Below are positions 3,139-20,058 of a DNA stretch of 21,806 bases, piece by piece. The stretch comes from a virus: positions 1 to 21,806 of the IMG/VR virus record IMGVR_UViG_3300035158_000481; one strand, written 5' to 3'. The position numbers and the translations under genes were made by a program. The notes below the pieces were generated by a model. That model was not told the origin of the DNA, searched no databases, and worked only from the letters and a program-made list of their open reading frames with translations. Each line of letters opens with the position of its first letter. Within the stretch, counting starts at the first letter, position 1.

Positions 3139-3353
3139 GGCGGCAGGGAGCGGAAGGGGGGGGTGCGGCCCCGGCGGTCCGGGAGAGAGGGTTATACCAC
3201 CCCACACAACACAACACGCGCGCCCCGCTCGACCTGTCAATCTCCCCCCACATCACGGAGCTGTGGCGTCAGAGTAGCCCGCGCGTGCGGCTCCCGTTTC
3301 ACTGTGACCCCGACGTGTACGAGGCTCTCGAGAAGCTCGGGAGGCTGCGGTGA
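3129..3353 (+). CDS. Small protein between TerS and TerL (74 aa)
   Basis: A GTG start at 3129 has GGAGG at 3118-3122 with ideal spacing, overlaps the end of terS by 10 nt, and the frame runs to a TGA (3351-3353) that overlaps the GTG of terL as GTGA. The first half is low-complexity and basic. The second half (SPHITELWRQ, then VRLPFHCDPDVYEALEKLGR) looks like a folded helical segment. No family is recognised. Its tight coupling to both terminase genes suggests a packaging accessory role. An alternative is that only the C-terminal half is translated, or that the gap is a packaging-site region with a chance ORF. Confidence 0.5.
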   Translation: MVLRRQGAEGGGAAPAVRERGLYHPTQHNTRAPLDLSISPHITELWRQSSPRVRLPFHCDPDVYEALEKLGRLR

Positions 3354-4822
3354 GCGAGCAGATCGTGAAGCTCCCGTACGAGCCGCAGACCAAGCAACGG
3401 CTATTTCACTCGTGTCCGGCAGACGAGGTGTTCTACGGGGGCGCGGCGGGCGGTGGGAAGTCGTACGCGCTGCTCTACGATGCGCTGAACTTCTGCCTGA
3501 AGTATCCAAACATCGACGCGGTGCTGTTTCGGCGGACGTTCCCGCAGCTCGAGATGTATCACATCCAGAAATCGCGGCAGGAGTGGCCGTCGACGATCGG
3601 GCGGTACAACGCATCGAAGTACTACTGGCAGTTTCACAACGGTTCGCGGCTGTTGTTCCGGGCGCTCAAGAACCCGGGGGACCAGTACGAGTATCAGACG
3701 GCGGAGTTCCCGTGGATCGGGTTCGACGAGCTGACGCATTTCCTGGAGGACCAGTACACGTACCTGCTGTCGCGAAACCGTTCCGCGTCGGTACCGGCGC
3801 ACGTTCCGCGGCAGGTGAAGTCCGCGTCGAACCCGGGGAACATCGGGCACGCCTGGGTCAAGCGGCGCTTCGTGGATCCGGCGAAGCCGAACACGATCTT
3901 CGTGCGCAAGACCGAGGACGGCCAGATGACGAGGTGTTTCATTCCGGCGACGGTGTACGACAACGATCGGCTGATGGAGGCGGACCCGTCGTATTTGAAC
4001 AAGCTCAAGTCGCTGGACAAGAACGAGCGGGAGAAGCTGCTCGATGGGAACTGGGAGATCGCGGAGGGGGCGGCGTTTCCCGAGTGGGCGTCGATGCGCG
4101 AGGGTTTGCCGTGGCACGTGATCGAGCCGTTTTCCGTGCCGTCGTCGTGGCGGGTGGACATGTGCATGGACTGGGGCTACTCGCGGCCGTTTTGGATCGG
4201 GTGGATCGCGTGGAACTACGACGACATGCCGTTTTTGGTGCGCGAGTGGTACGGGTGCAGGCTCGAGGAGTACGGGGAGGAGAAGGGGGCGAACAAGGGG
4301 ATCGAGATGGCGGCGGTGGACGTGGCGCGTCGGACGCTGAAGGACAAGGAGTCGGCGGCGTGGCACGTGAAGCGACGGATCGTGCCGCAGGACATCTGGG
4401 AGCAGAAGGGGACGGAGCGGACGATCGCTTCGGAGTTGATACGTGGGGGCTTTCGGGGTCTGGTGCGGGCGAACCGCGCACGCGAGGCGGGTAAACAACG
4501 GATGCACACGCTACTGCGGCAGTCGCGGGTGACGGGGGAGCCGTTTCTGCGGGTGTTCAACACGTGTCGCGGGCTGATCCGGACGCTGCCGCTGATCCAG
4601 TTGGACGAGAAGAACCCCGAGGACGTGGATTCGGACGGTGAGGACCACCCGTATGACGGGCTGCGGTACGGGCTGATGGCGCACCGGCTTCCACCGGAGG
4701 CGGAGGATACCGAGCGCGACGGGCGGGAGCAGCAGAGGCGCGACTACATGAACCGGATGAAGCGCCGGCGCGGGCCGGTGATGGTCGGGGCGGGGTCGGG
4801 TAGGAGCTGGAAGACGAACTGA
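3350..4822 (+). CDS. terL: Terminase large subunit (TerL)
   Basis: ATP-driven packaging motor and headful nuclease that docks on the portal. Residues 30-38 (GGAAGGGKS) are the Walker A motif with Lys37. WIGFDELTHF (122-131) is Walker B with Asp126-Glu127. SASNPGN (158-164) is the coupling motif. The RNase H-like nuclease begins with MDWGYS, Asp274, and closes with HPYDGLRYG, Asp436. At 490 aa the length is usual for the Terminase_6/Terminase_3-type large subunits of short-tailed and siphoviral phages. The start is a GTG overlapping the previous stop as GTGA. The stop overlaps the portal start (TGATG), so the two are coupled. All expected catalytic residues are present. Confidence 0.95.
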   Translation: MSEQIVKLPYEPQTKQRLFHSCPADEVFYGGAAGGGKSYALLYDALNFCLKYPNIDAVLFRRTFPQLEMYHIQKSRQEWPSTIGRYNASKYYWQFHNGSRLLFRALKNPGDQYEYQTAEFPWIGFDELTHFLEDQYTYLLSRNRSASVPAHVPRQVKSASNPGNIGHAWVKRRFVDPAKPNTIFVRKTEDGQMTRCFIPATVYDNDRLMEADPSYLNKLKSLDKNEREKLLDGNWEIAEGAAFPEWASMREGLPWHVIEPFSVPSSWRVDMCMDWGYSRPFWIGWIAWNYDDMPFLVREWYGCRLEEYGEEKGANKGIEMAAVDVARRTLKDKESAAWHVKRRIVPQDIWEQKGTERTIASELIRGGFRGLVRANRAREAGKQRMHTLLRQSRVTGEPFLRVFNTCRGLIRTLPLIQLDEKNPEDVDSDGEDHPYDGLRYGLMAHRLPPEAEDTERDGREQQRRDYMNRMKRRRGPVMVGAGSGRSWKTN

Positions 4823-6747
4823 TGAGTTTCCAGGAAACAGAAGCGAACATCGTGCCGGTGACGGAGGACGTCGAGAAGGCGAACCGCTTGTGCGAGCTTT
4901 TCGAGAAGGACCTCCGCCACCAGGTTGCGTGGCGTCGGAACCTAGCGGCGCGTGACGAGCGGTACTATCACAACGAGCAGCGCACGGCCGAGGAGATCAA
5001 GGCCCTCGAGGACAAAGAGCGTGCGCCGGTCCAGATCAACGAGATCGGCCCGGTGCTGGATTCGATTCTCTCGGATGCCCTGGACGTCGAGTTCGACTGG
5101 GAGGTCATTCCGATCCCGGGCGTCGAGTCGGTGCTCGAGACGGAGGAGCTTGCGGCGTCCGTGTACACGTGCCTGCTGAACGAGGCGAAGACGCGGTCGG
5201 GAATCGAGTTTTCGCAGGACGACGTGAAGGAGGACGGGCTGATCGTCGGCCGCGGGTGGGTGGAGATCGATTTTGACGGTCCGAACATCAGTCTTCTGCA
5301 CGTGCCCTGGCGGGACATGTGGTGGGACTGCTACGCGCAGGACAAGTATACGCTCTCCGATGCGCGGCACGTCGAGCGGTCGAAGTGGGTGCCGTACGAG
5401 TGGGCGCTGAAGACGTACAAGAAGCAGGCCCGCCAGCTCAAGGATCTCTACGAGGAGACGACCGACGAGGGGGTCGTGGGCGAGGGGCAGTACCCGGCGA
5501 CGCAGGACTACGAGCTTTCCGCCGGCGAGGGCGACAAAGAGAAGCCGAAGTACGTCGACAAGAAGAACAAGCGGATCCGCCTGGTCGAGATGTGGTACTA
5601 CGGGGATGATGGCCGGGTCCGGAAGGCGCTCTTCTCGAAGAAGATCCTGATTTCGGACGTCGATCGGCTCGAGGTGCGGCCGAAGCCGCTCAAGGTGAAC
5701 ACGCTCCCCTTCCGCTCGTACACCGTGAAGGTCGACCACAAGGGATTCCCGTACGGAGTCGTCCGGCCGCTCGTCGACCTGCAGGACATCATCAACAAGC
5801 GGTACTCGAAAGCCGAGTTTCTCCTGGACGTCAACCAGGTCATTACCCAGGAAGGCCTCTTCGAGGACCTCAACGACCTCGCGCAGAAGGCGGCGCAGCC
5901 CGACGCGGTGATCGAGATGCCGGCGGGCGCGGAGTACGGCAAGCATTTCGTGATTGAGCGCGGCGGGGAGCTGTCGACCCAGCAGTACTCGATGTTCGTC
6001 GACGCGATTCAGCGCATCCGGGAGATCGGGTCGCGTAACGCCGAGGCGCTGGGGTTGCCGTCGAACGCGCGAACGGGTCCGGCGATCGCGCGCCGGCAGC
6101 AGGCCGCGGCGAACACGGTCTACAAGGCGTTTCGGAACATGAAGCGGTTCTGGTACGAGCTGGGACTGGTCATGCAGCGGTTCATCCGCGCGTACTACAC
6201 CGACGAGCGGATCATCCGGGTTACGAACGAGGAGGGGGCCGTCGAGTACGTGAACGTCAACGGCGACGAGGCGCGTCTCAATCTCAACGACCCCCGGAAC
6301 CATTTCGACCTCGAGATGACGTCCGTGCCGGCGTCGCGTGACGCACGGGATCGCGAGCGCGAGCGCATGGAGAACCTGGGGAAGACGCTCGGGCCGGACG
6401 TGTTCCCGGCGGAGATGTGGGTGGAGAACTCGGGGCTTCGGCACAAGAAGAAGATCATCAAGTGGATTCGCCAGATGCGCGAGGCGAAGTCGCAGCCGTC
6501 GCCCGAGGAGCAGGCCAAGACGCAGAAGCTCATGGCCGAGGCGCAGGCGATCATGATCGAGGCGGGCCTGGATGAGGCGAAGGCACAGGAAGTGCTCGCG
6601 AAGGCCGGCCTCGAGCGGGCGCAGACGGAAGGCACGCAGATCGAGAATGCCTTGCTTCTCGAGAAGCTCGAGGCGCTCGATTCGGGCGTGGCGTCGATCA
6701 AGACGTGGATCGAGGGCCAGCCCAAGGAGTCGACCGATGCCTCGTGA
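4822..6747 (+). CDS. Portal protein, P22-like
   Basis: Dodecameric ring at the capsid vertex through which DNA enters and leaves. The N-terminal region (ARDERYYHNEQRTAEEIKAL, then ERAPVQINEIGPVLDSILSD) has the pattern of P22-family portals: a charged helix, then a motif where a conserved Pro/Asn pair precedes a helix. The central part (YGVVRPLVDLQDIINKRYSK; then a helix-rich segment with ARTGPAIARRQQAA) is also typical, and the C-terminal 90 residues form a long Ala/Glu/Lys coiled-coil (QAKTQKLMAEAQAIMIEAGL), comparable to the P22 barrel region. At 641 aa it is close to P22-type portals (about 700). It sits between terL and scaffold. The start ATG overlaps the terL stop; GGAG lies upstream. 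Confidence 0.88.
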   Translation: MSFQETEANIVPVTEDVEKANRLCELFEKDLRHQVAWRRNLAARDERYYHNEQRTAEEIKALEDKERAPVQINEIGPVLDSILSDALDVEFDWEVIPIPGVESVLETEELAASVYTCLLNEAKTRSGIEFSQDDVKEDGLIVGRGWVEIDFDGPNISLLHVPWRDMWWDCYAQDKYTLSDARHVERSKWVPYEWALKTYKKQARQLKDLYEETTDEGVVGEGQYPATQDYELSAGEGDKEKPKYVDKKNKRIRLVEMWYYGDDGRVRKALFSKKILISDVDRLEVRPKPLKVNTLPFRSYTVKVDHKGFPYGVVRPLVDLQDIINKRYSKAEFLLDVNQVITQEGLFEDLNDLAQKAAQPDAVIEMPAGAEYGKHFVIERGGELSTQQYSMFVDAIQRIREIGSRNAEALGLPSNARTGPAIARRQQAAANTVYKAFRNMKRFWYELGLVMQRFIRAYYTDERIIRVTNEEGAVEYVNVNGDEARLNLNDPRNHFDLEMTSVPASRDARDRERERMENLGKTLGPDVFPAEMWVENSGLRHKKKIIKWIRQMREAKSQPSPEEQAKTQKLMAEAQAIMIEAGLDEAKAQEVLAKAGLERAQTEGTQIENALLLEKLEALDSGVASIKTWIEGQPKESTDAS

Positions 6748-7011: not shown

Positions 7012-8070
7012 ATGGGGGATACGGCAACCGAGGCCAAGGAAGGCACGGAGGCTCAGGAGGAGAAGAAGGATTTTTTCGAGGCGTTCGCGTCCGAGGATGA
7101 CTTCGCTCCGCCCACCGACGAAGAGGACGAAAAAGAAGGTTCGCAGGACGACTCGTCCACGTCCAGCGACGATACGTCTGAGGGCGACGCAGACGGCAAC
7201 AAAGACGTCGCCAACGAGACCGATTCCGAGGGAGAAGGTGCGGGCGCGTCCGATTCCGATGATGACGACGAGTCCGCTGCCGGCGAGACGATCCCGAAGG
7301 GCCGTTTTGGCAAGGTCGTTGCCCAGCGCAACGAGCTTCGGGAGGAAGTGTCACAACTGAAAGCGCGGCTTGCCGCGAAGGATGAAGTGCAAAAGTCTCA
7401 GGCCAAGCCCGAGGATGAGAAGAAGGAGGACGAGGACGAGGAGGACCTTGACGAGCCGTTCATGGGAACGAGACGCGATTTCCGTGAGGCCGTGCGCAAG
7501 GAGGCGAAGGCGATCGCCGAGGAACAGACCGGTTCTGTTCGCGGCGAGGTCACGAAGCTGCACATGCGCATGTCCGAGCGGGAGTTTCGTCAGTCCCACA
7601 ATGACTACGACAAGGTCGTGTACGAGTCCGGCTTCATGGAGAAGCTGCAGAACCTCGCAAAGGGAGGCGACCGGGAAGCCCAAAGCATCGTTCGTGACAT
7701 TCTCGCGAGCGAGGACCCGGCTGCCGAGCTGTACGATGCGGCTCGCGAGGTGCAGGGGCTCAAGCCTCCTGCGGTTGACGAGATCGACGCGGATAACTGG
7801 GACCAGGTAAAGCCGGTCCTTGACGCGCTCGGCTTGAAGACCACCAAGGAGAAGTGGGCCAGCCGCCGGAAGGGAGCCACGGGTGACGGCGATGCCGACG
7901 CCGGAGGCGAAAAGAAGGCGGCGAAGAAATCCAAGAAGAAGTCCGACGACGACTCATCCGGCGACGCCGGCAGTCTTCGCAAGGCTCCGTCCGGAGCCGG
8001 CGATACGGGCAAAAGCACCGCTCCCGAGGTCATCGATCTCGACGATCACTTTGGCAGTACGTTTTCTTGA
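7012..8070 (+). CDS. Scaffolding protein (352 aa)
   Basis: Likely internal scaffold for procapsid assembly. It lies between portal and major capsid protein, the usual place. The sequence is extremely acidic and low in complexity in the first 100 residues, then GRFGKVVAQRNELREEVSQL begins a coiled-coil (residues about 100-125), a helix-rich middle, and a Lys-rich segment (GEKKAAKKSKKK) near the C-terminus, where scaffolds often contact the capsid. AAAGGAGG lies 7 nt before the ATG. The sequence does not contain a protease signature, so it appears to be scaffold only. Identification is by context and composition, since scaffold sequences are poorly conserved. Confidence 0.75.
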   Translation: MGDTATEAKEGTEAQEEKKDFFEAFASEDDFAPPTDEEDEKEGSQDDSSTSSDDTSEGDADGNKDVANETDSEGEGAGASDSDDDDESAAGETIPKGRFGKVVAQRNELREEVSQLKARLAAKDEVQKSQAKPEDEKKEDEDEEDLDEPFMGTRRDFREAVRKEAKAIAEEQTGSVRGEVTKLHMRMSEREFRQSHNDYDKVVYESGFMEKLQNLAKGGDREAQSIVRDILASEDPAAELYDAAREVQGLKPPAVDEIDADNWDQVKPVLDALGLKTTKEKWASRRKGATGDGDADAGGEKKAAKKSKKKSDDDSSGDAGSLRKAPSGAGDTGKSTAPEVIDLDDHFGSTFS

Positions 8071-8103: not shown

Positions 8104-9123
8104 ATGGTGTACACCATCGAGGCTACGCACGATTGCTCTGTACAGCAGTACGCCCGTTGGGTCTGGACGCAGTACATCCGGAACGCCTTTTGGTCGAGGT
8201 TCATGGGGACCTCGGACAACGCGGTGATCCAGGTGAAGAAAGAACTGCAGAAGATCCCGGGCGACAACATACAGATCCCAATCCGTGCGAAGCTCAAAGG
8301 CACGTCCAGAACCGAAGGTGACAATACCCTCAAGGGGAACGAGGAAGGGATCGAGTTCGAGACCCAGCGCATCACGGTCGACGAGGTGCGGTGGGGCGTT
8401 GCTCGTAAGGGCAAGATGTCTCAGAAGCGCGTCGCGTTCAGTCTGCGCGAGCAGACCCGCGGAGCGCTCACGGACCTGGCCCAGGAGGAGCTCGACCGGG
8501 ATATCACGACGGCAATGGTCGCAACGCCGGCGGGTACCGATCGAATACTCTACGGCAACAGCGTCTCGAACACCGCCCTGACCGATATCGACAGCACCGA
8601 CGACAAGTGCACGGCCGACGGCCTGCGCCTGGCGAAGCGGTTGCTGAAGAAGCAGGTCGATCCTCGCATTCGTCCCGCCAAGATGAAGAACGGAGACGAG
8701 CTCTTCATCGCTGTTCTGGACACGTACGCGGTCCGTGACCTCAAGGAGGACACGGGCACGACCGGGTGGGCGCAGATTCAGCTGAACGCTGCGGCCCGCG
8801 GGAAGAACAACCCGATGATGACCGGAGCATTGGGAATGATCGAGAATATCGTGCTCTACGAGTACGAGTATCTCCCGATCCTGTCAGGTGCAGGTGCGGG
8901 CAGCATCGACGTCGCCCAGAATCTCATCCTGGGTGCGCAGGCTGCGGCAGTCGTATGGGGTCAGATGACCGAGTATTCGGAGGATCTGGACGACTACAAG
9001 CACAGGCACGGGTTCAGTATCGATGAGATTCGAGGGATCGAGAAACTGAAGTTCAGCTTCGACGATACCTCGAAAGACCATGGCGTCTTCACCTGGTACA
9101 CGTCAGGTGTCGCCGATAGCTAA
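8104..9123 (+). CDS. Major capsid protein, N4-gp56 family
   Basis: HK97-fold shell protein. Several stretches match the N4-gp56 major-capsid pattern: IPGDNIQIPIRAKLKGTSR and then EGDNTLKGNEEGIEFETQRI (residues about 58-92), VRWGVARKGKMSQKRVAFSL (about 96-115), the RILYGNS loop, the AKRLLKKQVDPRIRPAKMK stretch, NPMMTGALGMIENIVLYEYE (about 237-256) and LILGAQAAAVVWGQ (about 275-288). At 339 aa the length is usual. AAGGAG (8091-8096) precedes the ATG by 7 nt. It follows the scaffold and a leader hairpin, as expected for the most abundant virion protein. Confidence 0.93.
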   Translation: MVYTIEATHDCSVQQYARWVWTQYIRNAFWSRFMGTSDNAVIQVKKELQKIPGDNIQIPIRAKLKGTSRTEGDNTLKGNEEGIEFETQRITVDEVRWGVARKGKMSQKRVAFSLREQTRGALTDLAQEELDRDITTAMVATPAGTDRILYGNSVSNTALTDIDSTDDKCTADGLRLAKRLLKKQVDPRIRPAKMKNGDELFIAVLDTYAVRDLKEDTGTTGWAQIQLNAAARGKNNPMMTGALGMIENIVLYEYEYLPILSGAGAGSIDVAQNLILGAQAAAVVWGQMTEYSEDLDDYKHRHGFSIDEIRGIEKLKFSFDDTSKDHGVFTWYTSGVADS

Positions 9124-9713: not shown

Positions 9714-9735
9714 CCCTCTTTCACGAGGTGGTGCA

Positions 9736-10584
9736 GTGAATCGGCGCGAGATGCGGGAGAAGGTGTTCTCGCTGCTCCAGGAGGAGCGGGCGAATCCTCG
9801 TCAGTGGACGCGGGAGGAAGTGAACGACTATCTCAACGAGGGCGAGGACGAGCACAACAAGCTGTCGCGGCAACTACGCGAGCGCGTGTCGTACACGGTG
9901 GGCCTTTATGGCAACACGTTCCCGGTCCCGGGAGGAGCGCTCGAGATCGCCAGCGCCCACTACTGGGACGGGACTGACGAGAAACCGCTTGAGCTGAAGA
10001 CGCGCCGGGACAACGACAGGGACTACGGCGAGGGGTGGGAGGACGAGACGACCTCGCAGCCCTGGCGGCTGTTCGAGTCGTTGCTCGAGGAGACTCCGTA
10101 CTTCGGGATACGGGACTACCTGAGCCTCTACCCGATATCGAGCGCGGACGACATCACGATCGCGCAGGAGGACCTCTCCGCGGAGCTCAACGGCGTCGGT
10201 GAGCTCGTGTGGCTCGAGGGCGACACGTCGCGCGGGATCCCCGTGGGTCTGTCGGACGACGAGATCTACCCGGTCGACGGCCAGCAGTTCGGCATGGTGG
10301 TGGGGGTGTACGAGCGCGACGCCGACGACGATGACGCGCTTTTCATCGAAACCCCTCGATGCCCGCGCGGAATGGAGTCGGACGGCGACGAGCCGGAGAT
10401 CAGAAAGTCGAATCACATGGCGGTTGTGAATTACGCCATGTACAGGTGCCTCTCGCGCCCGGGCGAGACGCAGGACATGAAGACCGCGGCGCACTACCTG
10501 AAGCTCTTCGACAGCGATCGTCGGGCGAATCGCGGGCAGCCGGTGGTGAGGGCCGACATACGGGTGAGACCATGGAGGGTGTGA
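9736..10584 (+). CDS. Putative head-tail adaptor (neck) protein (282 aa)
   Basis: GTG start at 9736 chosen because GAGGTG lies 5 nt upstream; the in-frame extension to 9565 runs through the terminator and the previous gene. The N-terminus (REMREKVFSLLQEERANPRQ, WTREEVNDYLNEGEDEHNKL) is helical with W-T-x-x-E-V-x-x-Y-L-N, the pattern of phage adaptors that attach under the portal. The middle is beta-rich and acidic, and the C-terminus (NYAMYRCLSRPGETQDMKTA) returns to helices, again as in neck proteins of podoviruses. The position after the capsid and decoration genes supports this. The exact family was not verifiable without a search. Confidence 0.6.
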   Translation: MNRREMREKVFSLLQEERANPRQWTREEVNDYLNEGEDEHNKLSRQLRERVSYTVGLYGNTFPVPGGALEIASAHYWDGTDEKPLELKTRRDNDRDYGEGWEDETTSQPWRLFESLLEETPYFGIRDYLSLYPISSADDITIAQEDLSAELNGVGELVWLEGDTSRGIPVGLSDDEIYPVDGQQFGMVVGVYERDADDDDALFIETPRCPRGMESDGDEPEIRKSNHMAVVNYAMYRCLSRPGETQDMKTAAHYLKLFDSDRRANRGQPVVRADIRVRPWRV

Positions 10585-10834: not shown

Positions 10835-13800
10835 ATGTCAGTACTTCGTGGGCTCGCGGGCGAGGAGGATTTCGCGTTCGGTCTCGGGACTGAGCATCGA
10901 ATGGAGGGGTTCGGCCGGAAGGCCGTTCGGACGCAGATACAGGCAAGGCACTTCCCGATCCTCGACGCCCTGCAGAAGTTCGACTTGGCGGACGTTGAAG
11001 GCGCCCTCGAGGAGTGTTGGACGGTTGTTTACCAGATGCTCGTCGATGCCGCGGACGCCCTGTACGACGGCGGCTACATCACGGACAAGGAGAGCTTCAT
11101 CGACGATATCCTCGATGAGGCCAGCGACGTCGCCGAGGACATCAACGACGACACGGATGAGGGCGGCTACGACGGCGGCTCGGACATTGGAGACACGCCG
11201 ACACCAGTGACGGACGGCGTGATCTACGTGCGGTACCCGGCTCGCGTGCGGCCGTCGACCAGGGCGATCCTGTGGGTTGAGGGCGTCGGCGGACTGGCGC
11301 CGTACACGTGGGAGATCCTGGCGAACAATACTGGCGCGACGCTTACCGCCCAGGGAGACACGTCCCGCGTTCTGTACACCGCCGGCACTGTCGAGGCGAG
11401 CGATACAATCAAGGTGACGGATGCGAACGGGCTGACAGCAACGTGCATCATCGAAATCGCCTCGGACGCGCCGGTCATCACGATCTACGGGGCGACGACC
11501 GCGGTAGTGAACGGCCCGGCCGTGGCGCTGCACGCGACCGGCGGGGCGACGCCGTACACGTGGGACCTGTACGCGGACGTGACGGGCGGATCGCTGACGG
11601 CGAACTCCGGCTATTTCGTGGGCCAGGGGTCTTGCGACTACTACCCGGGCACCATAGCGGGCACCGACACCGTTCGGGTGACGGAGCTCAACGGCTCGGT
11701 CGACCTGCACGACATCGTCGTTTCCGCAACGGATCCCGCGCACCCGAACCCTCAGATTCACGGGGCGACCTGGTGCCGCGTGCGCGGCGCGAGCGACCCG
11801 AACAGCGCGGACGTCTCGACCGACGAGGACTACGTGCTCCTCCTGCAGTGCGTGGGCGGCGAGGGGATGATCGACTGGGAAATCTCAGACGACAATTCCG
11901 GCGCGTCCATCTACCCGAAGGTCTCGCTGCCCGTGGACGGGAAGGACCTCGGGGACGCGCGATCGCCGGCGGCGGTCGAGGCCTCCTGGTACCGCAGTCG
12001 GCCGCGCGAGGCGGGACCTCCGTGGGAGGAGGGCGCGTGCCTCATGAACCTCGCGTACAGCGTTGCCAACGAGGACGCCCTTGAGACCGTCTGCACGACG
12101 ATCGGAGCGGAAATCGTGAAGTGGATCGGTGACGACATCGGCGTGAGCTTCCCGTGGGTTCACATCCGGACGACGACGGGGCAGACTACCGAGGACCTCA
12201 TCGACGCGCTCGACGACCACTACACGACCGAGTGGATTACGCCGAACTATCGCCGGTACCGGGCGGGATCCACCCCGATCTACATGTCCGGCGATGCGTC
12301 CGATACGACCGACTCCGCCCTGGCCGTCGAGGTGATCGCGGTGTACGTTGCGGGGACGACCTCTGGCGTCACCGACACCGTGAAGGTCACGGACACGAAC
12401 GGAATGACCGACGAGCACACCATCAGCGTGCTCGCGGAGGCGACGACGACGGAGCCTGAGATATACGGCTGGACCGAGTGCGTCGAGAACGGCGAGCTCA
12501 TCCTCAAGGTCTACGGGGGAACCCCGCCGTACGACTGGGAGATCCCAACGAACAACAGCGGCTCGCAGATGTTCGAGACGGAGGAGGACGAAGACGGCCA
12601 GAATCGCTACAAGGCCGGGTCCACCGCGGACGTGTCCGACACCGTGCGGGTCACGGATGCCAACGGAAAGACCGACGAGCACACCATCAGCGTGTACGAC
12701 AGTTCCGAATCGGGAGACCACGACGACGACAACCCGTACTCCTGGCCGCCGTACTGGAACGACGACACCGGGTACCTGCAGGTAAACATCGCACCCCAGG
12801 AAGCGATAACCGACGGGGCCCAGTGGCGCGTCAACGGCGGCACGTGGATGGATAGCGGCGAGCGCGTTGACGGGCTCGACGTGGGCGACGCGGCCTACGT
12901 CGAGTTCAAAGCGATCGACAACTGGACGATACCGGACCCGCAGACCGTGACGATCGTGGCGGGTGCGAACGTTGTGTCCGGGACGTACGAGCAGGCGGCC
13001 GGGGTCATTGCGTCTTTTACGGTCTCGTGCGACCGAGATTATTACCCGGGCCGCGTACTTCGGCTGACGATCACCCCGAAGGACTCGGAGGGCAACCAGG
13101 TCTTCGTGGCCGAGACTGACATCATCATTACGTCGTCGGCCGAGGGGCTGGACCTGTACGGCTCCGGTACCTGCCAGCGGACGGACGCGACAGAGTCGCT
13201 CGAGACGACGATCGGCGGCGGAGGCACGTACTACAAGGACGTCGCGTGGTGGGGCGAGACCCCGTTCGACGATCCGATGACGATCACCGTGAAGCTGGCC
13301 GACGACGAGTCGATCACAGGATCCGTGCAGGTGGACCTCGACGCGGCTACGCTGGCGCTCACGGACACCGGGTCAGGCCAGTACATCAACGAGACGAAGT
13401 ACGAGCACCTTTCTGTGGCCGTCAAGGACAGCGGTGGGGCCACCTGCGCCGAGTTCGACGGGGACGTGCTGCTCTCGCCGAGCGAGGGGGAGATATCGCT
13501 CGACGGCGTCACGTACGGCGCGAGCGCGACGCTGTCCATCACGAACGGGTCCGGTTCGACGGACCTGTACCTCAAGAGTTGCAGCGGCGACGTGACGATC
13601 ACTGCTGTTCTCGTGGACGATACCTCTCTGACCGATACGGCAGACCTTGAGGAGGTGCCAATTACGTTCGAGTTCGGTGGTGCCTGGGACGCGGCGAACA
13701 AGACGGGGCTCATTTCGGATGCCACCGCGTTCGAGATCACGATCACCGCGAAGCGCGGCAACGATACCGTGACGACCTTTGCGGAGGCCTGCACGGTCAC

Positions 13801-14590
13801 TCCGGACTCGGGGACACCGAGCAACAACACGATCGCTGCCGGCGACTGGTCGAACGGCGAGGTGACACTGGCGTCGCTTACGATCGACTGGGACGGGACG
13901 CCCTCCGAGATCGTGCTGACGTGCGCGGACGACGCGGCCGGCACAAAGACCGGTACCCGCACGGTCAAGACGGACAATGCCACGGCCTCAACGACTGAGA
14001 ACATGACGATCAAGATCGCCAGGAAGTACGCCACGTCCGCATCGAAGGCGACGGCCGAGTTGGCGTTCGATGATGCCAAGACCAAGTACGACGGATCCCC
14101 GAGCTATGGCGCTATCGTGTACTACGCCGACAAGAACGAGAAGCACTGGGGCGACACGTACGGGGAGTACTGCAGGTTCGACTATGGCGTCAGTCTGTTG
14201 CACGTGGCGCTGACGAGCTTTGGCGACGACGAGCAGCTCTTCCTCGAGTTGACGTTTGACAACCCCGCGAAGGCGGCGGCTGTCTGGAGCCAGGCGGACC
14301 TCTACATTGTTCAGCCGCCGACGTCGTCGGACTACACGGCCGCCACGGACGAGGCCCAGTGGGAGGCTGGCGTCGACCTCACTACACTGCGACTCATCGA
14401 CGAGAGCGTGATTGTGAACTCGGGCACGATCTTGGTGGACCTCAATATGACGAAGGCCGACTTCACGCCAGGGATCCCGATGCAGGTCTTCATCCGCCCG
14501 GCCGTCAGTACCGCGTGGGGCGCCTACGTCAGCGACAGCACGAAGAACACCCGGTACTACCCGGCGTCCGCGAAACTGAAAGGGTACTAA
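10835..14590 (+). CDS. Giant Ig-like repeat virion surface protein (1251 aa)
   Basis: Probable long appendage or head/tail decoration. Domains by eye: N-terminal anchor-like domain (residues about 9-75, related to the 78-aa neighbour); acidic linker; four Ig-like repeats with GG-x-x-PYTWEI, N-x-SG, DTVKVTDANG and a final I-x-V strand (about 129-210, 214-300, 308-537 interrupted, 542-622); a Trp/Gly-rich domain with GAQWRVNGGTW common in bacterial surface proteins (about 646-712); two or more further Big/Ig-like domains (about 716-1050); and a C-terminal beta domain (about 1056-1251). Inside repeat 3, residues about 395-477 resemble a subtilase propeptide (I9 type) ending in WITPNYRRY. It is rich in Thr and Ser. 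GGGAG precedes the ATG. Adhesin and glycan-binding roles are both possible. Confidence 0.7.
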   Translation: MSVLRGLAGEEDFAFGLGTEHRMEGFGRKAVRTQIQARHFPILDALQKFDLADVEGALEECWTVVYQMLVDAADALYDGGYITDKESFIDDILDEASDVAEDINDDTDEGGYDGGSDIGDTPTPVTDGVIYVRYPARVRPSTRAILWVEGVGGLAPYTWEILANNTGATLTAQGDTSRVLYTAGTVEASDTIKVTDANGLTATCIIEIASDAPVITIYGATTAVVNGPAVALHATGGATPYTWDLYADVTGGSLTANSGYFVGQGSCDYYPGTIAGTDTVRVTELNGSVDLHDIVVSATDPAHPNPQIHGATWCRVRGASDPNSADVSTDEDYVLLLQCVGGEGMIDWEISDDNSGASIYPKVSLPVDGKDLGDARSPAAVEASWYRSRPREAGPPWEEGACLMNLAYSVANEDALETVCTTIGAEIVKWIGDDIGVSFPWVHIRTTTGQTTEDLIDALDDHYTTEWITPNYRRYRAGSTPIYMSGDASDTTDSALAVEVIAVYVAGTTSGVTDTVKVTDTNGMTDEHTISVLAEATTTEPEIYGWTECVENGELILKVYGGTPPYDWEIPTNNSGSQMFETEEDEDGQNRYKAGSTADVSDTVRVTDANGKTDEHTISVYDSSESGDHDDDNPYSWPPYWNDDTGYLQVNIAPQEAITDGAQWRVNGGTWMDSGERVDGLDVGDAAYVEFKAIDNWTIPDPQTVTIVAGANVVSGTYEQAAGVIASFTVSCDRDYYPGRVLRLTITPKDSEGNQVFVAETDIIITSSAEGLDLYGSGTCQRTDATESLETTIGGGGTYYKDVAWWGETPFDDPMTITVKLADDESITGSVQVDLDAATLALTDTGSGQYINETKYEHLSVAVKDSGGATCAEFDGDVLLSPSEGEISLDGVTYGASATLSITNGSGSTDLYLKSCSGDVTITAVLVDDTSLTDTADLEEVPITFEFGGAWDAANKTGLISDATAFEITITAKRGNDTVTTFAEACTVTPDSGTPSNNTIAAGDWSNGEVTLASLTIDWDGTPSEIVLTCADDAAGTKTGTRTVKTDNATASTTENMTIKIARKYATSASKATAELAFDDAKTKYDGSPSYGAIVYYADKNEKHWGDTYGEYCRFDYGVSLLHVALTSFGDDEQLFLELTFDNPAKAAAVWSQADLYIVQPPTSSDYTAATDEAQWEAGVDLTTLRLIDESVIVNSGTILVDLNMTKADFTPGIPMQVFIRPAVSTAWGAYVSDSTKNTRYYPASAKLKGY
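12369..12694 (+). repeat. DNA-level repeat between Ig-like units 3 and 4
   Basis: A 25-bp stretch is identical at 12406-12430 and 12670-12694, coding TDEHTISV. The bases before it (about 12369-12405 and 12633-12669) are also very similar, coding DTV(K/R)VTD-x-NG. The spacing is 264 bp. This indicates recent duplication or gene conversion between adjacent Ig-like units. Confidence 0.85.
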
Positions 14591-14591
14591 G

Positions 14592-15500
14592 ATGGACGTG
14601 ACGATTATCATCCCGTGCGTGCGGCTCTCCAGGTTTCTCGAGAAGGTGACGCTGCCGGCGATCGCGGCACACACGCCGGGCAACGTGCGGATGGTGATCG
14701 CGCACGAGCCGGACCTCAACGTGTCGGAGTGCCGCCAGAAGTGGATGGAGCTTGCCGAGACGCGGTACGTGTACTTCATGGACGTGGACTCGGTCATCGA
14801 CGAGGACGAGTGGCTCGAGAAGCTCATGGACCTCATGGAGGAGCACCAGGCGGGAGCTGTCACGCCGCAGGAGCACTGGGGCGGGAAGGCCGTAGGTGGA
14901 GAGGAGCCGTTCGAGCGCACGGGATACTTCGGGACCATACGGCGCACCGCCGGCGCGGGGTGCCTGTACGACACGCGCGTCGGGGCCTGGTGGGATCCGA
15001 ATCTTGGCGAGACGTACGGTTACATCGGGCGCGAGCTCGAGGACGTAGATTTTGCGTTGTGCATCCGGTCCCTTGGATTCATGACGTACGGCACGGACAT
15101 CGTGTCTTTCTGCCACGACTGGCACGACGAGAACTTCAAGAAGTCCGACGAACGCGCCATGTGGGAAGTGGTGGGGCTGCTCATCGAGGCGAAGTGGACG
15201 CTGCCGCCGGGCCGGGACCGCGACTCCTTCTTCCGGTTGATTCACCCGCTGCAGTCGAGGGGGTTCGAGAAGAACCACGACATCGTCAATTACGCCAGGG
15301 GCCGCGCGGCCGAGCATATCTACGGCGACATCGTTGAGTACTGGGGCGGGGATGCTTCATTGCTCCGCTCGATCGCAGAGAATGGCCGCGCAGTCGGGGA
15401 CGGGCTTTTCCCTCGCGGTCTCACCACCCCGGAACAGCGCGGCGTCGAGGACGTCTGGTCGAAGCGGTACCGCGCGTGTAAACCCAGGAGTCCGAAGTGA
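14592..15500 (+). CDS. Glycosyltransferase, GT2-type (GT-A fold) (302 aa)
   Basis: Predicted inverting sugar transferase. The N-terminus VTIIIPCVRLSRFLEKVTLP is the nucleotide-sugar Rossmann strand-helix; NVSECRQKWMEL resembles the GT2 N-x-x-x-A-R-N-x-G region; YFMDVDS holds the DxD-type metal motif (Asp64, Asp66); ELEDVDFALCIRSLGF holds the acidic ED motif (Glu150-Asp151) with the D-x-x-x-x-x-R-x-x-G pattern of the catalytic-base region; and FCHDWHD contributes a late His. At 302 aa it is a minimal soluble enzyme with no membrane segments. It lies between the giant surface protein and the nozzle gene, both translationally close (1-nt gap, GTGA overlap). It probably modifies a virion protein, or less likely the host surface; the target is inferred. 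Confidence 0.8.
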   Translation: MDVTIIIPCVRLSRFLEKVTLPAIAAHTPGNVRMVIAHEPDLNVSECRQKWMELAETRYVYFMDVDSVIDEDEWLEKLMDLMEEHQAGAVTPQEHWGGKAVGGEEPFERTGYFGTIRRTAGAGCLYDTRVGAWWDPNLGETYGYIGRELEDVDFALCIRSLGFMTYGTDIVSFCHDWHDENFKKSDERAMWEVVGLLIEAKWTLPPGRDRDSFFRLIHPLQSRGFEKNHDIVNYARGRAAEHIYGDIVEYWGGDASLLRSIAENGRAVGDGLFPRGLTTPEQRGVEDVWSKRYRACKPRSPK

Positions 15501-16819
15501 GCGATGGAGTATTCGAGGAATTTCACGGCCTCAACACGGAGGACCCGTCCACCGAGATCGGCGAGACCGAGGCGACTCATTGTCACAACTGCGACCTTCG
15601 TTCGGGGATTGAACTGCTCACCGGATTCGAGCCTTCCTACGGCCGCCCTGTAAGCTGGCAGGGCCATGACTTCTCGCTTCTCGCTGGCGAGATCCTCCGC
15701 GACGGTGTTCCCCTCGGCGTTCCCCAGCCCACCGAACCGACGGTGACGGCCGCTTCCGGCGGGTCTCTCGACGCGGGCCGGTACGAGTTTCTCGTGACGT
15801 TCCTTGTGGGAATGGAAGAGGGCGTCGGGAGCGAGTCGGCTGCGGTCACAGCCGATGCGAACGAGAAGATCACCGTGGACTGGTCGGCCTCGACGATCCC
15901 CGATCGCGTGACGACGGCGAAAGTGTACGCGCGCGGGGGGCCCAACTACGTTATCGAGTTCTGCGAGGTTGCGCACGTCTCCAGGAGCGTGACGAGTCAG
16001 ACGTTTCTCACGATGGACATCGACCCGACGGAGGGCATTTACGAGAGCTTCGATAACGCCGAGCCGCCGAGCGATGTGGACTACCTCTACTGGCAGAACG
16101 CGCGTCTCTATGCGGTCGCCGCAGACAAGGTGTACTACTCGAACGTGGGGGACCTGCACTACGGGTTCCATCCGGACCAGGTGTGGCGCGTGCCGGACAA
16201 CGTCACAGGCCTCTGCGGGATCGGTGAGGACCTGGCGATCGCATGGTCCACCGGAATCGCGAACATCTTCGGACAGATCAAGACAGCGCTGCAGAAGCGC
16301 GAGACGAGCGTGGTGGTTGGGCCAACCGATTTTCTCACGTTCATCTCCGTGGGTGGCCCGGTTCTCTACGTCAACAAGAACAAGGGCATCTACCAGTACG
16401 ACGGCCGCGCGGAGAAGAAGGTGTCGCACAAGATCAATCCGACATTCCCGCTCACCGGGGACCTGCGTGCCGCCTGGGACGGGCGGTACTACTGCATCGA
16501 CCACGGCATCGGCATGGACTTCGAGCGGGGCGACTTCTTCACGTTCGACTCGCAGCTCCAGCGATTCATCTACACGACGAAGGACTTCCGGTACGACATG
16601 GTGCGAAAGACCGGCGCACGCTTCGCGGTCGGCTACAAGGGCTCGCCGACCGTGCGGATTCTGCGTGACGGCCGGAATGTCGAGACGTATCCGCTGCCTC
16701 ATAGCCGCGAGAGAACCGTCGCGAACCGTTACTTCCCGAAGGGCCGGTACCAGCGCATGAGCCTGACGTTCTCTGGCGGTGCCGGCGACAAGGTCTACGC
16801 GTGGAGGCTCAAGCCGTGA
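15497..16819 (+). CDS. Putative tail nozzle / tail stabilisation protein (440 aa)
   Basis: The GTG overlaps the previous stop as GTGA, with AGGAG 7 nt upstream. The protein is mostly beta. The first 80 residues (FHGLNTEDPSTEIGETEATH, then HNCDLRSGIELLTGF) have the pattern of podoviral tail proteins that begin with 'G.N..D.P..I...EA....N.D', then an Ig/Fn-like domain (SLDAGRYEFLVTFLVGMEEG to VYARGG), then repeats of W-x-x-x-LYAV..D-x-VYYSNVGD and VLYVNKNKGIYQYDG typical of a beta-propeller. This matches nozzle proteins such as P22 gp10 in architecture. It would form the end of the tail tube. Alternatively it is a different propeller-type tail protein; homology was not checked. Confidence 0.65.
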   Translation: MSDGVFEEFHGLNTEDPSTEIGETEATHCHNCDLRSGIELLTGFEPSYGRPVSWQGHDFSLLAGEILRDGVPLGVPQPTEPTVTAASGGSLDAGRYEFLVTFLVGMEEGVGSESAAVTADANEKITVDWSASTIPDRVTTAKVYARGGPNYVIEFCEVAHVSRSVTSQTFLTMDIDPTEGIYESFDNAEPPSDVDYLYWQNARLYAVAADKVYYSNVGDLHYGFHPDQVWRVPDNVTGLCGIGEDLAIAWSTGIANIFGQIKTALQKRETSVVVGPTDFLTFISVGGPVLYVNKNKGIYQYDGRAEKKVSHKINPTFPLTGDLRAAWDGRYYCIDHGIGMDFERGDFFTFDSQLQRFIYTTKDFRYDMVRKTGARFAVGYKGSPTVRILRDGRNVETYPLPHSRERTVANRYFPKGRYQRMSLTFSGGAGDKVYAWRLKP

Positions 16820-19800
16820 GGCGGGTCATCGAGGTCATTGAGGACGTCAACGACGTCGATGTCGATGGGATCCCGGCGGACAACGAGGTCCTCGCGTACG
16901 ATTCAACGACCGGCAAGTGGACCAACCAGACTGCAGCCGAGGCGGGACTCGCGGCCTCGTCGCACACCCATGATGATCGGTACTACACGGAAGCCGAAAC
17001 GGATGCGGTTGCGGTGGCGGCGGCCGGGGCCGCGGTAACAAGCCACGAAGCGTCTTACGACCACGACAACTACGACACCGCGTACGGATGGGGGGACCAC
17101 GGGGCCGCTGGCTACACCACGGCCCATGCCCTGCTTTCCGCTTCTCACACCGATACTGTGGCAGCGGGCGTCTCCCGAGGGTCCATCATCATCGGGAGCG
17201 CGACGCCCAAGTGGGAGGAGCTGGTGATTGGAGCGTCAGGGACGTACTTGTGCAGCGACGGCACGGACATCTCCTGGTCCACTATCCAGGCCGGGGACCT
17301 CCCGGCGCACACCCACGACGGCGACATTTTGGAGCATGACGGCCAGACAATCACCGGGGATACATATCTCATCGACACCGACAAGTGGGTATGGACGCCG
17401 GGCGGCAGCGACGAGGCAATCAACGCTGCGATAGATGCGCTGAATGCTGGTGGTGGGATGGTGCAGGTGATGGCAGGTACTCACACTGTCAACTCGTCGG
17501 TCGAGATCGATGTTGACTACACTGTGCTTGATGGCGGTGGTCGAGGCTGCTACCTCGATGCCCAAACCATAGCCGCTGATATACCTATTGAGTGCGTGAA
17601 TCATGACCATGTAGCTCTTCGGAACTTTAGGGTAGAGGGGCCGGGTGGTGGAACGCATCCCAATGTTTTGGCGAGTCAGTCGTTGTACTGCGAGTGGTCG
17701 GGTATTTACAGCACTAATGCTGGTAGAGACGGATTTTCTCGACAGACCATATCTTCGTATGGTTCACTATTCAACTGCATCGCTGAGAGCAACGGACGGT
17801 ATGGGTTCTCTATCCTGTCATCGACGCTGATGGCGTGTAGCTTCAACCAAGCGATTTCAAATAACCACTACGGCTTCTACTTCGCACAAGCTGGGCACAT
17901 GTCGATGGTGAATAACATTTGCGCGTACAATACGTATGGGTTCTACTTGGACGTTGACGGCGGCTCTTTTGTGTCGAACATCTCGTACTTCAGCGGCTCC
18001 GATGGATACGGCTGGTTTCACAAGGGCGACAACACTACCATGACGGGCAATGTCGTTAGGTGGGGAGAGTACGGAGCAGTTATCGACGGGAACTATAACA
18101 CGATTTGTGCAAACACGTTTGAACGTCAGGAAGTAGCTGGCATACAGATCAACCCCGGCGAGAGCGAAAATATGTTCCTCGGAAACACCTTCGATACTAT
18201 GGTCAACGGTGGAGTGGACATTAACCTGGTTGGGCAGAACGACCGCATCGGGATAGTTGCGAACATGTTTTACGCCACGGCTGGCAACACCGAGACGGCG
18301 CTTAATGTGGTGGACGGTGACGATGGGGTTGCTGTTGCAAACATCTCGGTTGGCCACGATACGTCTTCGTTTACACTGGATGCTACAAGCGCTGGATGGG
18401 TAATCGGGTGGAACAAGCTGGAGGCGAAGCCCACGCTGACCGGGGCTGCGAACATCAACAACATTATGCTCTATCCCGACACAGCCAACATGATAAACGA
18501 AGGCAACTACGCTCAGAGCTGGATAGCCGCAGACGGAGCGCGGGACAACCAGTACGTCGGCATCTTCCACAACCTTGAGAGTGATGCAGGGCGTAGCTAC
18601 GGCCTCTACATCCAGGCGGGGACCGACGCGGACGATGCGGCGTTGACCATCTATGACTACGATGGATCGAACCTGCTGCTAAACGTGACTGGTGCGGGCA
18701 CGGTATCTGGTACGGCCATACTGGACGAGGATGACATGGCGTCCGACAGCGCAACGCACCTTGCCACCCAGCAGAGCATCAAGGCGTATGCTGACGCTGT
18801 GGCTGGCGGCGCTCATACTCATGATGGGGATACACTGCAGCTTGACGGGATCAACTCAGACGGAGGAGCGTTCAGCTTCACCACCTCGGGGGCGGTGACA
18901 TTCTCGCAGAGCGTCGTGACCAGCGGGGGCTTCGGCGCAGAGGGAACGGGCAACGCTAGCGTCTACTACTATGTTAGCGGAACGCGAGCCTACGGTGGAT
19001 GGTTTCAGAGCACCAAGAACGACGGGAACGCTTGGGGTGCGGTGCTCCAGGCGTCCACAGACAACACTGGTGACAATGTGGCCCTTCAGGCATACGCCAC
19101 CAATGCTGGGGCAGGAGAAGCTATTGGTGCGTACATCCGGGGTATTGACTGTGCTGTCAAGATTGGAGACGGTCAGTATATCGGCTCGGAGTCCGTCTAC
19201 AACGCCATCCAGATAGAGGCCGACGGGGATGTGGTGTTCTCACAGGATATCACGGTGCAGTCAGGAATCGTGTACGCTGGGGTGAACGACACCACCCACG
19301 GCTGGTACTATGCCTACGGGAGTGGGGCAGGGTCGCCGCAAGGGGGCGGTTTGTTCGCATTTACGGCGGCTGACTATGACACGAACATCGCATATTATGG
19401 CTTCTATGTGCAACAAGATGACCTGTTCATCGGCCCCAACACCGACCAAGACTTCATTAAGATAATCGGCGCCGCCGCTGCGGCTGATGTGGCGTTGCAG
19501 ATTGCAGGCAACGTTGGGATAGGGGTTGCGGCTCACGCCACATCAAAGCTATACGTATGCTCTTCCCTTACCACTGACTACACCTACGCGGCCGAGTTCT
19601 TTCACGACGAAGACGACGGTAAGGCCTATGGAATTAAGGTGAGGTGCGGGAACGACTCTGTGGCAGGAGGTAACTACTGCTACGCTGTTGACCTGTATAG
19701 AGGAGATGACACCAAGGAGGGTGGGTTAAGAATCAATGCGGGGACTGTTGAGATTTGGAATAGCAGTTCAAGAAGGATCAAGGATAGGGTCCGCATGACG

Positions 19801-20058
19801 ACGATGGACAGCCGTAGTATCGTATCAGGGATAAAGGTGCGGGATTACACGCGCAAGGATTTCCCAGGCTCTTGGCACACGGGATTTGTAGCGGAAGAAA
19901 TGGCCGAAGTCTATGAACCCGCTGTGGCACGGCATCTCAATCCGAAGGACCCGCTGGGCGTGGTTCCGGGCAACCTTATCCCCGTGCTGGTGAAGCGGTG
20001 TCAGGAGTTGCAGGAGGAATTGGACAGGGTGAACAGGTTGTTGGCCGAAAGGAATTGA
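16816..20058 (+). CDS. Tail fiber/tailspike with beta-helix and S74 chaperone domain (1080 aa)
   Basis: Receptor-binding protein, probably trimeric. The start is set at GTG 16816 (GTGA overlap with the nozzle stop; GGAGG at 16803-16807) instead of 16801. N-terminal part: phage-fiber adaptor pattern (VLAYDSTTGKWTNQT), histidine turns (SHTHDDRYYTEAET). From residue about 197 (DEAINAAIDALNAGGGMVQV) a pectate-lyase-like right-handed beta-helix runs to about 550, possibly a polysaccharide-degrading or binding domain. Then a stalk with MASDSATHLATQQSIKAYAD (641-660), a second AHTHDGD segment and Gly/Ala-rich beta repeats. The C-terminal about 100 residues (SSSRRIKD from 983, GFVAEEMAEVYEP, coiled-coil end) are a Peptidase_S74-type intramolecular chaperone that trimerises and self-cleaves. 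Several long stretches are visibly richer in A/T than neighbours. Confidence 0.88.
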   Translation: MRRVIEVIEDVNDVDVDGIPADNEVLAYDSTTGKWTNQTAAEAGLAASSHTHDDRYYTEAETDAVAVAAAGAAVTSHEASYDHDNYDTAYGWGDHGAAGYTTAHALLSASHTDTVAAGVSRGSIIIGSATPKWEELVIGASGTYLCSDGTDISWSTIQAGDLPAHTHDGDILEHDGQTITGDTYLIDTDKWVWTPGGSDEAINAAIDALNAGGGMVQVMAGTHTVNSSVEIDVDYTVLDGGGRGCYLDAQTIAADIPIECVNHDHVALRNFRVEGPGGGTHPNVLASQSLYCEWSGIYSTNAGRDGFSRQTISSYGSLFNCIAESNGRYGFSILSSTLMACSFNQAISNNHYGFYFAQAGHMSMVNNICAYNTYGFYLDVDGGSFVSNISYFSGSDGYGWFHKGDNTTMTGNVVRWGEYGAVIDGNYNTICANTFERQEVAGIQINPGESENMFLGNTFDTMVNGGVDINLVGQNDRIGIVANMFYATAGNTETALNVVDGDDGVAVANISVGHDTSSFTLDATSAGWVIGWNKLEAKPTLTGAANINNIMLYPDTANMINEGNYAQSWIAADGARDNQYVGIFHNLESDAGRSYGLYIQAGTDADDAALTIYDYDGSNLLLNVTGAGTVSGTAILDEDDMASDSATHLATQQSIKAYADAVAGGAHTHDGDTLQLDGINSDGGAFSFTTSGAVTFSQSVVTSGGFGAEGTGNASVYYYVSGTRAYGGWFQSTKNDGNAWGAVLQASTDNTGDNVALQAYATNAGAGEAIGAYIRGIDCAVKIGDGQYIGSESVYNAIQIEADGDVVFSQDITVQSGIVYAGVNDTTHGWYYAYGSGAGSPQGGGLFAFTAADYDTNIAYYGFYVQQDDLFIGPNTDQDFIKIIGAAAAADVALQIAGNVGIGVAAHATSKLYVCSSLTTDYTYAAEFFHDEDDGKAYGIKVRCGNDSVAGGNYCYAVDLYRGDDTKEGGLRINAGTVEIWNSSSRRIKDRVRMTTMDSRSIVSGIKVRDYTRKDFPGSWHTGFVAEEMAEVYEPAVARHLNPKDPLGVVPGNLIPVLVKRCQELQEELDRVNRLLAERN

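Follow-up and report, generated by a model that had tools for sequence, protein, structure and literature searches.

Subtilase prodomains fold and block their own subtilisin-type protease in cis, and a few of them act as standalone inhibitors. Standalone propeptide-like inhibitors have been described in fungi, yeast and apicomplexans, and one of them, SUB1-ProM, is encoded beside subtilase genes and is a potent and selective inhibitor (PMC6993865). For phages, our literature search on I9 or subtilisin-propeptide domains found nothing relevant. The domain presented here is a known one in a new setting: residues ~396-479 of a 1251-aa phage protein are, on the evidence of sequence comparison, very probably homologous, though strongly diverged, to subtilase prodomains of the fervidolysin type (PF22148).

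Gene neighbourhood and position of the insert

The record IMGVR_UViG_3300035158_000481 is a virus record on its own, and the window analysed is its whole stretch of 21,806 bases. Its content is a tailed-phage structural cassette, in which the following genes were recognized:

3350-4822, large terminase
4822-6747, P22-type portal
7012-8070, candidate scaffolding protein, on the basis of position
8104-9123, capsid
~9733-10584, SU10-type adaptor
10835..14590, + strand, open frame of the 1251-aa protein with Ig/PKD-like repeats, a probable virion surface protein
14592-15500, family-2 glycosyltransferase
15497-16819, head-closure-like protein
16801-20058, beta-helix/S74 protein of 1085 aa

The phage is podovirus-like, as seen from the P22-type portal and the SU10-type adaptor. 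The gene of the 1251-aa protein is preceded by the adaptor gene and followed by the glycosyltransferase and head-closure genes. In Pam5, a distant relative, the head-completion gene comes after the adaptor with nothing between, so that this position here holds two additional genes, those of the 1251-aa protein and the glycosyltransferase. Gene order, the sole basis for this assignment, suggests that the 1251-aa protein is probably part of the virion. The glycosyltransferase gene begins one base past the stop of the 1251-aa protein gene, within the structural cassette, and its product could be a virion modifier. The 1085-aa protein is a probable tail spike or fibre: it includes a right-handed beta-helix region, and its C-terminal part matches the S74 chaperone with 22.1 bits, just at the cut-off.

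Internal repeat comparison of the 1251-aa protein gave four Ig/PKD-like repeats within residues 128-624, library support being confined to a sub-threshold PKD_6 match of repeat 1. The features of this region are:

11216..11467, + strand, Ig/PKD-like repeat 1, residues 128-211 (internal repeat; PKD_6 E 0.022, below cut-off)
11468..11737, + strand, Ig/PKD-like repeat 2, residues 212-301 (internal repeat)
11741..11920, + strand, first part of Ig/PKD-like repeat 3, residues ~303-362, alignable to repeats 1, 2 and 4 as far as SGASIYPK
11921..12328, + strand, extra stretch in repeat 3, residues ~363-498, domain and two linkers, edges approximate (repeat spacing)
12020..12271, + strand, subtilase-prodomain-like domain, residues ~396-479 (own profile, hhalign, BLASTP; alignment-driven AlphaFold2 model)
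12239..12247, + strand, T469-P470-N471, position at which subtilase prodomains have the helix-capping Glu-x-Asp/Asn pair (alignment; PMC6993865)
12329..12439, + strand, last strands of Ig/PKD-like repeat 3, residues ~499-535, matching repeat 4
12458..12706, + strand, Ig/PKD-like repeat 4, residues 542-624 (internal repeat)

An initial annotation of this DNA, made from the letters alone, had described a propeptide-like domain interrupting repeat 3, and the spacing of the repeats agrees with it. The W-E-I motif starts at 11305 in repeat 1, at 11872 in repeat 3 and at 12532 in repeat 4, which corresponds to ~283 nt for each step from repeat 1 to 3 versus 660 nt from repeat 3 to 4. The excess of ~376 nt (~125 aa) implies that repeat 3 contains ~125-135 extra residues, at ~363-498. 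The last strands of repeat 3 are 83% identical to the equivalent part of repeat 4 over 81 nt. The segments quoted in the annotation, GACLMNLAYS, ALETVCTTIGAEIVKW, TTEDLIDALDDHY and WITPNYRRY, are all present within 12017-12265. The 83 aa flagged there gave the position of the domain rightly and understated the extent of the insertion, as the full extra stretch is longer and comprises the domain and two linkers. The open frame is continuous through the insert, and the GC and third-position GC of the insert are like those of the rest of the gene. The annotation also stated that no catalytic protease domain was seen in the window, in accordance with which the whole record gave no PF00082 match at E <= 10.

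Two further stretches of the protein can be mentioned. Directly past the domain, at 12251-12322, RYRAGST...SDTTD is similar to RYKAGST..SDT in Ig repeat 4, and may be a repeat-strand remnant at the insertion edge, or chance. A unit of the GAQWRVNGGTW type at 12728-13015 (residues ~632-727) has a 37% match in one phage record, MT836778.1, from human faeces.

Homology to subtilase prodomains

Searches of the 1251-aa protein and its pieces against Pfam, NCBIfam and PHROGs returned nothing for the insert, and the PDB sequence search with the insert returned a chance match only. PF22148 gave no match on the phage protein at E <= 10, neither in hmmscan nor in the six-frame search. Since the score lies below the Pfam cut-off of 21 bits, we describe the domain as a remote homologue and not as a PF22148 member in the sense of Pfam.

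We therefore relied on a profile of our own. A generic fervidolysin-type prodomain consensus was written, which Pfam scores as PF22148 with 76 bits; a slightly varied form of it fetched 80 genomic loci, and the profile was built from the natural sequences therein. The VEYAEPNY motif was included in the fetching patterns, so selection explains part of its conservation among the 80, and members found with Pfam's own model show more variation at it. With filters off, the profile matched residues 422-476 of the phage protein (envelope 398-481), with 14.1 bits and E 2.3e-6 on the segment alone and 8.8 bits on the whole protein. The reversed segment scored 1.1 bits, and shuffled segments reached 9.0 at most, none out of 5000 attaining 14.1. 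The best score among 103-residue windows of six-frame ORFs from 87 related phage loci was 7.3 (n=11,657), and windows of the 1251-aa protein away from the insert stayed at or below 0.4. Profiles from random halves of the members gave 9.6-14.6 bits, and 13.7 bits were retained when the profile was made without five of the closest family sequences.

BLASTP against the 80 loci pointed in the same direction. The best match was a 140-aa standalone PF22148 protein (L012) with 35.8 bits, 29% over 78 residues, in an alignment spanning PPWEEG/PPFVPG to TPNY/EPNY, while the maximum for shuffles was 26.6 bits (n=1000). With hhalign, a probability of 80 and E 1.4e-5 were obtained over 77 columns. The prodomain likeness annotated at residues ~395-477 is hence above chance by own profile, BLASTP and hhalign. 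The type given there, I9/fervidolysin, stands for its fervidolysin (PF22148) half. Classical Inhibitor_I9 (PF05922) had no match in the Pfam search of the record, and our own profile of it scored -2.2 bits, a value which 238 of 2000 shuffles equalled or exceeded. Profiles of ACT and HMA, families of the same fold class, scored -2.0 and -1.4 bits, values that shuffles matched.

The signal is mostly located in beta3-alpha2-beta4, i.e., in the C-terminal half. The part before the last strand scored 2.4 bits by itself, and beta1-beta3 alone lacked significance, being equalled or beaten by 55 of 1000 shuffles. The domain is diverged in that the beta1 motif PGExxVKF is lost and the beta2-beta3 turn is longer than in prodomains. 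In the tree of the domain the phage branch is unplaced and very long, 4.3 changes per column.

Predicted fold and the capping site

Modelling with AlphaFold2, named in the initial annotation as a check, gave a divided outcome. The single-sequence model of residues 346-528 was poor (pLDDT 40), had the order E-H-E-H-E over the insert, and was left out of fold matching. With 63 genomic prodomains as alignment the prodomain fold beta-alpha-beta-beta-alpha-beta was obtained, with a core pLDDT of ~90. This second model is alignment-driven and, because the alignment itself carries the fold, is to be taken as compatibility and not as proof. The predicted elements are:

beta1, residues 397-406
alpha1, residues 413-422
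beta2, residues 425-431
beta3, residues 441-446
alpha2, residues 452-462
beta4, residues 465-472

As beta1 and beta4 are adjacent in this fold, both ends of the domain come close together, which is suited to insertion into a loop. In Foldseek, the standalone subtilisin inhibitor POIA1 ranked with the top PDB matches and had the highest target-normalised TM-score, 0.64, among the matches listed, in a search that was not discriminating, as many ferredoxin-like proteins had similar E-values.

At the helix-capping pair, whose role is taken from PMC6993865, the phage domain keeps the second residue, N471, and has Thr (T469) at the first position, which is usually Glu. Ala, Thr and Val occur at this first position in genomic subtilase prodomains, so T469 would be compatible with binding. 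The phage domain has a tethered C-terminus instead of a free one; for the PfSUB1 propeptide, the C-terminal tail is dispensable for inhibition (PMC6993865).

Prodomains outside proteases, and the search for relatives

Among the bacterial loci, standalone PF22148 proteins of ~120-150 aa, apparently exported, were found directly upstream of a subtilase gene in seven cases (L004, L015, L032, L049, L050, L060 and L070). The subtilases downstream mostly had a prodomain of their own, and the small proteins are candidate inhibitors or folding aids in trans. Similar standalone proteins were encoded in four loci (L012, L021, L028 and L036) with no subtilase gene in the stretch examined. Two GspD-type secretins from Nitrospirota carried a C-terminal PF22148 domain (L040:503-2710 and L080:494-2713; 71 and 45 bits), with both parts confirmed by Pfam and no protease within either protein. 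On these secretins the domain may be where a secreted subtilase docks. The standalone genes beside subtilases and the secretin tails together suggest that prodomains may be employed for binding more often than the name implies.

No relatives of the 1251-aa protein or of its insert were found in the viral contigs, phages, plasmids and genome contigs searched; weak matches to Rhizobium plasmids had E 0.1-0.3. The prodomain-like domain was absent from 80 viral contigs found by portal similarity, and from seven phages found by capsid similarity, the latter in a search run without positive control. Eight viral contigs (L081-L088) contained Bacillus-like subtilase genes with prodomain, one of which (L082) stops early. 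Their PF22148-like matches were rejected as relatives of the phage domain. Subtilase catalytic sequence follows the prodomain in all eight, so they have the look of genes from hosts on prophage-type contigs, and the DNA is probably that of a host next to a prophage.

Interpretation

We propose that a fervidolysin-type prodomain was captured by a podovirus-like phage and placed in a loop of Ig-like repeat 3. It would then be presented on the Ig-like arm of a long, probably virion-exposed protein, and the record supplies no catalytic partner for it. Through its sheet face and the strand-4 edge (TPNY) it could bind a subtilase that the host or its neighbours secrete or display, by which the virion would be anchored, or shielded from that protease. 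A displayed protein-binding module, which may dock on or inhibit a host subtilase, is the likeliest role for the domain, and we give the binding of a subtilase a chance slightly below even. The more specific proposal, of a captured prodomain which the virion displays so as to dock on or inhibit a host or community subtilase, is in our estimate unlikely as a whole. The binding reading is drawn from the kept PNY edge and from the occurrence of the family in trans; the Thr at the first capping position and the strong divergence of the domain count against it.

About as likely is that the homologous domain has been re-used structurally, its protease binding gone, and now helps within the Ig arm as a compact spacer or in folding, or touches another virion protein or a glycan; we hold this to be plausible, if short of probable. 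The very long branch, the lost beta1 motif, the longer beta2-beta3 turn and the tethered C-terminus lead to this reading, and the lack of a subtilase in the record and the fusion of the domain to two secretins, which are non-proteases, fit it as well. However, the best-kept part of the domain, strand 4 with PNY and N471, is the part that meets the protease in known complexes, and a spacer need not keep it.

Both of these readings presuppose homology, and a chance likeness, in which another ferredoxin-like or an unrelated fold happens to resemble a prodomain, is improbable in our judgement. Such folds are common and Foldseek fails to single out prodomains among them, the AlphaFold2 model made without alignment is poor, the N-terminal half alone is not significant, and the phage protein was chosen by eye. 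Nevertheless, profile, BLASTP and hhalign concur in register across the domain, other ferredoxin-like families are without signal, and none of the 11,657 control windows scores as high. A piece of a host subtilase gene, recently inserted by chance and functionless, could also be imagined, because the similarity reaches about to the junction between prodomain and mature protease (STP versus TPND). This explanation was rejected on composition and divergence, and we regard it as very improbable: the frame is open throughout, the base composition matches the rest of the gene, and the divergence is too deep for a recent capture.

If the proposed role is true, the use of prodomains would extend to viruses of bacteria, and the contact between virion and host would be aimed at extracellular proteases. 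The phage would then carry a protease inhibitor on its virion, or a binding module with a protease as receptor. Diverged prodomains of this kind are missed by curated libraries.

Comparison with known systems

Several putative Ig/PKD-like repeats, great length and a gene in the structural cassette are traits which the 1251-aa protein shares with Ig-like repeat proteins of phages. It differs from them in matching no phage record searched and no PHROG family, and none of the other phage records searched had its prodomain-like insert. With the PF22148 cis prodomains of S8 subtilases the domain has in common the sequence profile, the register, the predicted order of secondary structure and the PNY at strand 4, whereas it scores below the Pfam cut-off, is not followed by an S8 catalytic domain and lies inside an Ig-like repeat. 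The standalone bacterial PF22148 proteins, both those with no subtilase gene in the stretch examined and those upstream of one (here L049, L050, L060 and L070), are likewise prodomains without a protease of their own. However, they are proteins of 130-150 aa with an apparent N-terminal export signal, while in the phage the copy lies inside a protein of 1251 aa, and the tree leaves it unplaced. The two GspD secretins resemble the phage protein in that the domain is re-used in a non-protease protein, but theirs is C-terminal in a bacterial secretion channel, involves no insertion and has diverged much less. The phage domain also differs from POIA1, SUB1-ProM and further standalone propeptide-like subtilisin inhibitors (MEROPS I9), which occur as free proteins, end in a free C-terminus and inhibit in measurements; it has Thr for the first Glu, and its inhibition is putative. 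They are like it in predicted fold, and SUB1-ProM has Asn at the second capping position, as does the phage domain with N471.
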